Of a DNA stretch of 64,000 nucleotides, positions 9,223-10,466 are shown piece after piece; within the stretch, counting starts at the first letter, position 1; each line of letters opens with the position of its first letter. Where the stretch lies: positions 186,001-250,000 of the forward strand of contig JAACJK010000012.1 of assembly GCA_013368325.1 (NCBI GenBank). Reading direction: 5' to 3'. The notes under the pieces were generated by a model. The model ran no database searches. It was not told the origin of the DNA and saw nothing but the letters and a program-made list of their open reading frames with translations. The DNA is from Ephemerocybe angulata (lineage: Eukaryota > Basidiomycota > Agaricomycetes > Agaricales > Psathyrellaceae). The position numbers and the translations under genes are program-made.

Positions 9223-9641
9223 ATGTCTGGCCGTGAAAAGGGCGGAAAAGGCCTTGGAAAGGCTGGTGCCAAGCGACACCGCAGGATCTCTCGCGACAGC
9301 ATCCAGGGTACGAGGGTTCGACGCTCTGACCTCGACCTGTAACTCACCCTTCCCCAGGCCTAACCAAGCCCCCTGCTCGGCGCCTTGCCCGTCGAGCCGG
9401 TGTTAAGCGCATATCTGGCTTCATCTACGAAGAGATCCGGGGTGATATTAAGATCTACCTCGAGAACGTGAGCCCTACAACAATTGTGTCTTCCGAGGCA
9501 TCCTGAATCCATGGACCCTCATAGGTAATCCGTGACACTCTCGCGTATACCGACCATGCCAAGCGTCGCACCGTCGCTGGCCTCGACGTCGTCCGCGCCC
9601 TCAAGCGATCAGGTCGTCCCATCTATGGATATGGCGCGTAA
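9223..9641 (+). CDS. Divergent histone H4 variant 1
   Basis: Intact H4 paralog of 103 aa from exons 9223-9307, 9358-9467 and 9525-9641. Exon lengths (85, 110, 117 nt) and phases equal those of the conventional H4 gene. It differs from the H4 at 2059 at about 25 of 102 positions, in one of the most conserved proteins known. Changes include G4E, K20R (loss of the methylated lysine), L22S, A33P, I34A, V57D, Y88R and T96P. K5, K8, K12 and K16 remain and the end reads RSGRPIYGYGA. No stop or frameshift is present, so it looks expressed or only recently released from constraint. No H3 partner is adjacent. It could be a specialised variant, for example stage-specific, or an early pseudogene. Confidence 0.85.
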
Positions 9642-10039
9642 TCGCTCCCGTGAGTTCGTGGCTATCTGGTGGGGAAAGTATATAGCTCTAGTAGATAGAA
9701 ATGCATTTTATCAGTGGTCTACGTGATACCCCGTTACATTTCGAAATAGTCCTTTGAACTCCACAAACAGAGGCCCATTGACATGGTCAAGAAACTAGAA
9801 CTTAGCACCTTCACGTCACACCCACAAACATGAATAGCACATACCGGAGTGGCAGGCATTTTACGGTCGATCGCCTGTTCTGCGGCACACTGCTTGGGAT
9901 GGTTGTGGAAGCCAAGCTTCCCTATCTCTTTATCTCTCAGCAGCCTCGTGATCCGGCATGGAATCCCAGTCCGAATTCAGTGTACTGCTTCTCTATCACA
10001 AACCACCACCATTACAGCCCCCACAGCTCTATTCTCAGC

Positions 10040-10466
10040 ATGGCCGGTCTTGGGAAGGGCGCGAAAGGCCTTGGAAAGGGTAAGAGTGTCAGGCGGCATC
10101 GCAAGATCCTTCGTGATAGCATTCAGAGTATGTGGTACTCGTCTGCTGAGCCCTATGTGCTCGAGCACACTCACTGCTCGTCCTAGGCATACCCAAGCCT
10201 TCCCTTCGTCGTGTTACCCGCCGAGGTGGCGTCAAACGTATGTCTGGCCAGATCTATGAGCATGCGCGCGGTGCTTTCAAGGACTTCCTCGAGAACGTGA
10301 GTGTGAACACCGACTTGGTATCTATTTCAATGGATTTAGCCTTCTCCAGACCCTCCGTGATACGGTAGCCTACACCGACTATGCCAAACGCAAGACTGTC
10401 ACCGGTCTGGACGTTGTCCACGCTCTCAGGCGATCAGGGCGCTCTCTTTATGGTTACGGTGCATGA
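10040..10466 (+). CDS. Divergent histone H4 variant 2
   Basis: Intact H4 paralog of 104 aa from exons 10040-10127, 10187-10296 and 10350-10466, with the same intron positions as conventional H4. The tail starts MAGLGKGAKGLGKGKSVRRH: R3 is Leu, there is one extra residue, and the K16 equivalent is Arg. The fold carries G28S, T30P, A33S, L37V, A38T, L49Q, E53H, I60D, V65T, H75Y and Y88H among about 30 changes; the end is RSGRSLYGYGA. It lies about 400 bp downstream of variant 1 in the same direction, so the two probably arose by tandem duplication and then diverged strongly from each other. Function as a chromatin protein is inferred from the fold only. Confidence 0.83.

Follow-up and report, generated by a model that had tools for sequence, protein, structure and literature searches.

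Histone H4 hardly varies across eukaryotes, and only a small number of H4 variants have been described. Among fungi, the variant H4E, represented by hheA of Aspergillus nidulans and H4v of Neurospora crassa, has been reported in Pezizomycotina, some Taphrinomycotina and Glomeromycota (Flipphi et al. 2024, PMC10878826); the abstract of that paper describes H4E as nuclear and as interacting with H3, with no detectable phenotype upon its absence or overexpression. Its discussion names Trypanosoma brucei H4V, Oikopleura testis H4, human H4G and bracovirus H4 as paralogs with reported specialised roles. The terms "basidiomycet", "Basidiomycota" and "agaric" are absent from the main text of PMC10878826, and a literature search over titles and abstract openings, with most subscription journals outside its coverage, turned up no H4 variant from a basidiomycete.

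Here we describe two divergent H4 genes, H4 variant 1 (v1) and H4 variant 2 (v2), that lie in tandem in the 58.67 Mb genome of Ephemerocybe angulata (Psathyrellaceae, Agaricales). This species is a small ink-cap mushroom, and we take Coprinellus angulatus to be its synonym. All coordinates given without a contig are positions in the window, i.e., the whole stretch of 64,000 nucleotides that was analysed (contig C154, 186001-250000). Like H4E, as described in the main text of PMC10878826, the two genes are fungal, stand beside canonical H4, and have a patchy distribution and poorly resolved trees, and K16, often changed to Arg in H4E, is Arg in v2; by contrast, H4E has longer tails at both the N- and the C-terminus and introns unlike those of canonical H4 (seven in the model gene and one in Glomeromycota, with a cDNA origin proposed), while the ends and introns of v1 and v2 are canonical. 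An assignment of v1 and v2 to the ascomycete H4E was ruled out by introns, tails and the protein tree. In that tree, where support is mostly low, two xylarialean sequences that we take to be H4E by their likeness fall in another group than v1 and v2. The absence of a detectable phenotype for H4E in PMC10878826 calls for caution with functional guesses about v1 and v2. The other paralogs described there belong to unrelated lineages and differ in kind: T. brucei H4V is about 80% identical to its own canonical H4 (about 76% and 70% for v1 and v2), Oikopleura testis H4 carries three changes (25 in v1 and 31 in v2), and human H4G lacks the C-terminal tail and bracovirus H4 has a long N-terminal one, whereas v1 and v2 are of canonical length, v2 with one additional residue (PMC10878826). 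With regard to the canonical H4 genes in the same window (H4a and H4b), v1 and v2 resemble them in introns, a leader element, a CCGGC motif near -90 and the tail lysines K5, K8 and K12, and differ from them in TATA box, divergent H3 neighbour and the residue changes described below.

Gene structure and coding constraint

v1 occupies positions 9223-9641 of the forward strand (exons 9223-9307, 9358-9467 and 9525-9641, stop included; 103 aa) and is followed on the same strand, after a spacing of 398 nt, by v2 at 10040-10466 (exons 10040-10127, 10187-10296 and 10350-10466, stop included; 104 aa). When the splice models were re-read by script, all four introns proved to be GT-AG and no internal stop was found; the database proteins D9611_012780 and D9611_012781 of E. 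angulata are 100% identical to v1 and v2, respectively. Compared with the local canonical H4, 25 of 103 aligned positions differ in v1 and 31 of 103 in v2, corresponding to identities of about 76% and 70%. The open frames, the GT-AG introns and these differences confirm the proposal of the initial annotation that two intact, divergent H4 genes stand here in tandem; its estimate of about 25 and 30 differences is exact for v1 and one short for v2, and its statement that length is kept applies strictly to v1, v2 being one residue longer.

Searches with H4 identified at least seven H4 loci in the genome, namely H4a, H4b, a gene on contig C226, v1, v2 and one locus each on contigs C143 and C185. 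Canonical H4b (2059-2478, forward strand) and canonical H4a (40089-40510, reverse strand) each have a canonical H3 gene beside them in divergent orientation, at 1271-1616 (reverse) and 40960-41306 (forward), respectively; these H3 coordinates cover the matched stretches only, and the genes are slightly longer. The third canonical H4 gene, on C226, encodes the same protein as H4a and H4b over the compared part, its model being without the first three residues. Both introns of v1 and v2 have the positions and phases found in H4a and H4b (phase 1 in codon 29 and phase 0 before codon 66), so that the two derive from duplication of such a gene at the genomic level and not from a cDNA copy. The intron positions are thus kept, as had been claimed, relative to H4a and H4b; the C226 gene has a different intron set.

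The loci on C143 (280551-280958) and C185 (715028-715281) are decayed H4 copies and served as controls for frame loss. Over 487 nt, the C143 copy matches the C226 gene at 96.1% identity, with two 1-nt gaps already present in its exons; the C185 copy, compared with H4b over 347 nt, shows 87.3% identity and 14 gaps, counted over exons and introns together. The reading frame is hence broken in these pseudogenes at 4% and 13% divergence, respectively, while v1 and v2 are far more diverged and have no frameshift. In comparisons with H4a (NG86), dS was 0.82 and dN 0.142 for v1 and dS 0.87 and dN 0.182 for v2, giving dN/dS ratios of 0.17 and 0.21; between v1 and v2, dS was 1.21 and dN 0.246. A dN/dS near 1 had been named at the outset as one part of a result that would speak against the proposal; within this genome neither ratio is near 1.

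A branch codon model, implemented in our own script with one omega per branch and fitted to five genes of this genome (p-values are approximate), gave omega values of 0.12 for v1 and 0.27 for v2. Fixing both at 1 was 26.4 log units worse (p 3e-12), and fixing both at neutrality under two other topologies gave p 2e-8 and 9e-7. With v1 and v2 as sisters, a topology that this model favours over the two others by 9 log units, fixing v1 alone at 1 cost 9.6 log units (p 1e-5), while the v2 terminal branch alone was weakly below neutral (cost 2.2, p 0.035); under the two other topologies, fixing v2 alone cost 9.3 and 9.5 log units. The two genes do not look like the decaying copies, and neutrality of both together is rejected. 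The codon model, the frame-broken pseudogenes and a retained leader element (see below) likewise bear out the initial view that the genes are intact and not neutral.

The database records name the two proteins just "hypothetical protein" or, in UniRef, "Histone H4", which might speak for pseudogenes or an assembly artefact. Such a reading is hardly credible, since the frames are open, all four splice pairs are intact, dN/dS is about 0.2 and the leader is retained; pseudogenes were set aside on the strength of the codon models and of the decay seen at C143 and C185. A subtler possibility is that v1 and v2 are birth-and-death paralogs under relaxed constraint, i.e., once-useful, redundant copies that are heading to loss and have no specialised function at present. 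The weakly constrained v2 terminal branch in one topology and the decay of other H4 copies in the same genome (C143 and C185) are in its favour; the joint rejection of neutrality and a frame that has stayed unbroken at a synonymous divergence of about 0.85, against 4% and 13% in the pseudogenes, make it unlikely. With moderate confidence, we instead read v1 and v2 as functional H4 variants, maintained by selection, that probably belong to a fast-evolving Agaricales family and arose by intron-keeping duplication of canonical H4.

Residue changes and histone fold

In v1, the changes comprise G4E, G13A, K20R, L22S, N25S, I29L, A33P, I34A, G41A and L49F, followed by T54I, V57D, L58I, F61Y, S69T, V70L, T71A, E74D and K79R, and finally T82A, A83G, Y88R, T96P, L97I and F100Y. 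In v2, they comprise S1A, R3L, G7A, G14K, A15S, K16R, N25S, G28S, T30P, A33S and I34L, followed by L37V, A38T, I46M, L49Q, E53H, T54A, V57A, L58F, I60D, V65T and I66L, and finally S69T, T71A, E74D, H75Y, A83G, Y88H, K91R, T96S and F100Y; the v2 tail also has one inserted residue, and the K16R call hinges on where that insertion is placed. All six substitutions singled out beforehand (K20R, V57D and Y88R in v1; K16R, E53H and I60D in v2) are present. Of the modified residues, K20 is thus gone in v1 and R3 and K16 in v2, and the altered fold residues are V57D and Y88R in v1 and I60D and Y88H in v2. Unchanged in both variants are K5, K8, K12, R35, R36, R39, R40, K44, R45 and T80, and both retain the YG-aromatic-G C-terminus.

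The changed positions were compared with those that vary in other H4s, represented by 163 distinct sequences with 13 agaric or near-agaric ones left out. Overall, the changed positions were not clearly the variable ones: P was 0.03 for v2, and those changed in v1 showed no enrichment at variable sites (P 0.27), which suggests that constraint on v1 may be loose and lends some weight to the view of redundant copies on their way out. G41, altered in v1, is invariant in all 163 reference sequences, and 8 of the 25 new residues in v1 and 5 of the 31 in v2 occur in none of them. Within a set of residues taken to contact DNA, each variant has one change where about three were expected, an avoidance that is not significant (P 0.15 for v1 and 0.08 for v2).

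The best match among PDB sequences is histone H4 for both proteins (E 8.3e-45 for v1 and 9.6e-41 for v2), and the best 60 PDB sequences are all H4 chains; at these E values, the likeness to H4 is beyond chance. AlphaFold models place helices at 33-41, 43-76 and 84-93 in v1 (mean pLDDT 69.5) and at 26-29, 33-42, 50-77 and 85-94 in v2 (mean pLDDT 70.1). These models of lone proteins convey little beyond helix positions; the v1 model, the only one searched, had rmsd values of 11.7-22.9 A against the 50 structure chains listed. A search of NCBIfam returned only sub-threshold matches to archaeal histones.

V57D, Y88R and I60D are radical changes in the fold that might weaken contacts with H3 or H2B. 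One could therefore imagine v1 and v2 as histone-fold proteins outside the nucleosome, for instance as decoys for chaperones or as subunits of some other histone-fold assembly, and Pfam does report CENP-T_C in both (below cut-off) and TAF in v1. Both of these families are matched by canonical H4 as well, however, and H4 as best PDB match together with the retention of R35, R36, R39, R40, K44, R45 and T80 in both variants renders such a role very unlikely. The two may be specialised chromatin proteins, as the initial annotation suggested, an interpretation that the results support in part.

Relatives in other Agaricales

Three homolog searches were conducted, with v1 (5201 proteins at E <= 0.001, best 120 examined), with v2 (132 proteins, best 120 examined) and with residues 58-113 of a Laccaria variant (17 matches); together they listed 248 proteins. 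Apart from the queries themselves, no protein exceeded 74% identity among the best 120 of 5201 for v1 or the best 120 of 132 for v2, i.e., no close ortholog was found there. Divergent H4s matched by v2 came from Laccaria amethystina, L. bicolor, Coprinellus aureogranulatus, Lentinula edodes, L. novae-zelandiae and Paramarasmius palmivorus, and the third search added one from Mycena leptocephala. With one sequence with an odd N-terminus left out, the variants of the putative family are about 70-81% identical to canonical H4 (72-83 of 103 positions). Among the matches listed, the relatives lie in few agaric genera, which speaks for the reading of copies under relaxed constraint.

The combination S25, T69 and A71 occurs in 8 of the 248 listed matches (v1, v2, two Laccaria, Coprinellus, two Lentinula and Paramarasmius), and all eight carriers are Agaricales of the suborders Agaricineae and Marasmiineae, those of L. 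amethystina and L. novae-zelandiae being assigned by genus; the signature was derived from the very sequences in which it was counted. T69 and A71 also occur without S25 in nine more of the 248 (one Mycena, two chytrids and six unnamed), which indicates that the signature is partly convergent. With each of the two Laccaria variants, v2 shares 12 derived states, compared with a mean of 3.1 and a maximum of 8 for 111 other sequences, each with at least 12 derived states. v1 shares six with Paramarasmius, six with v2 and five with Coprinellus (others: mean 1.35, maximum 5). In nine sequences counted together as the agaric set (eight agaric, one metagenomic), the sharing with v1 and v2 exceeds that of the 111 others (P 1e-6 and 1e-5, for sequences that are not independent of each other).

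A protein tree was computed from 39 sequences, i.e., canonical H4 and 38 hand-chosen from the 248. Eight agaric variants and the metagenome sequence formed a clade with support 83/90, in a tree in which the bootstrap had not settled and inner branches were mostly weak. The Mycena variant fell outside this clade; placing the nine agaric variants, Mycena included, in an exclusive group was compatible with the data (p-AU 0.51), as was an exclusive group of v2 and Laccaria (p-AU 0.36). An exclusive pair of v1 and v2 cost 13.5 log units (p-AU 0.21), so that the protein tree conflicts with the codon model, which took in no other agarics, on whether the two are sisters. In AU tests, joining v1 (p 0.40), v2 (p 0.26), the two together (p 0.16) or the Laccaria pair (p 0.13) to canonical H4 was not rejected.

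These results bear on a further account, one that concerns origin and under which the variants may still function: several agaric lineages may have duplicated H4 independently and come to share some changes. The AU tests leave room for it, T69 and A71 recur outside agarics, and the Mycena variant stands outside the clade, although its placement inside is not rejected; against these points stand the 12 derived states common to v2 and each Laccaria variant, the clade support and the excess of sharing in the nine-sequence agaric set. We regard independent duplications as possible but doubtful. A single old H4 variant family of the Agaricales is the better reading, though not a proven one. Between the two Laccaria variants, 15 of 103 positions differ, and between the two Lentinula variants 4 of 86 compared, which is fast for H4.

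Upstream regions, histone partners and possible role

A 15-mer, CACAAACCACCACCA, precedes v1 at 9179-9193 and v2 at 9997-10011 (both forward strand), starting 44 and 43 nt before the ATG, and precedes H4b at 2008-2022 and H4a at 40547-40561, in both cases starting 51 nt before the ATG. Only seven exact copies exist on both strands of the 58.7 Mb genome, four of them before these four genes, while the pattern read backwards, used as a control, has two copies. No copy was found within 200 nt at the C226 gene or at either pseudogene, with up to three mismatches allowed. An H3 gene on contig C128 carries the element with two mismatches at -52, so that it is not entirely confined to H4. Exact copies of this leader before v1 and v2 are at odds with loss of function under slackened selection. 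In addition, a CCGGC motif is located at -92 in v1 (9131-9135) and at -87 in v2 (9953-9957), both on the forward strand; in H4a and H4b it lies at -93, just behind a TATATA at -100. The latter box has no counterpart in v1 or v2, and v2 has no TATA[AT]A match within 150 nt. Over the 120 nt that immediately precede the ATG, the genes align in each of five pairs (0 of 1000 shuffles), mostly through the leader itself; the region upstream of these 120 nt (P 0.67-0.99, three pairs) and the downstream sequence (P 0.18-0.46, three pairs) showed no alignment. Unlike H4a and H4b, the two variants have no divergent H3 neighbour.

The retained leader and the missing TATA box suggest that v1 and v2 are expressed, under regulation that differs from that of bulk H4. 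With neither TATA box nor divergent H3 partner, they are probably expressed elsewhere or at another time than bulk H4, perhaps, as a guess, in fruiting or meiosis.

Beside the variants, at 6210-8561 (reverse strand), lies an open frame of 783 aa that encodes DEAD and helicase C-terminal domains. DUF6589 and NACHT/NPHP3_N families are often expanded in mushrooms, and the window includes a frame of each (4128-5099, forward, and 18575-19855, reverse, respectively); no tRNA was called in the window by ARAGORN under the bacterial code.

A divergent H3 variant is encoded in the window too (47436-48024, reverse strand; exons 48024-47994, 47916-47675 and 47609-47436); it is intact at 148 aa, has a GC-AG second intron and shares 80 identities with canonical H3 (Pfam Histone, E 1.3e-33); its tail contains a repeated QTARK motif. 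A near copy of 149 aa is found on contig C55 (96% over 900 nt), and partial or decayed matches occur on C69 and C80, several of them close together on C80. The histone inventory further includes a putative CENP-A-like H3 (L005, G000:C146:703838-704278). The divergent H3 variant is a possible partner of v1 and v2. A bolder scheme, in which an old, rapidly evolving H4 system of the Agaricales would in E. angulata combine v1 and v2 with the divergent H3 into an alternative tetramer for a particular chromatin state or life stage, appears quite unlikely.

Under our preferred reading of v1 and v2 as functional variants kept by selection, both would be translated and, with K5, K8, K12 and the YG-aromatic-G C-terminus in place, would be deposited by the pathway that normally serves H3-H4 and take the place of canonical H4 in some of the nucleosomes. 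Such nucleosomes would be predicted to differ in stability and in marks, because v1 is without K20, v2 is without R3 and K16, and fold residues are changed in both.

That selection apparently keeps such altered H4s is of note, since few proteins tolerate as little change as H4. If this reading is true, Basidiomycota would join the lineages with H4 variants, direct testing would be possible in cultured mushrooms (Laccaria, Lentinula and Coprinellus), and the family would serve as a mutational scan of H4 provided by nature, from which the residues dispensable to a nucleosome could be read.
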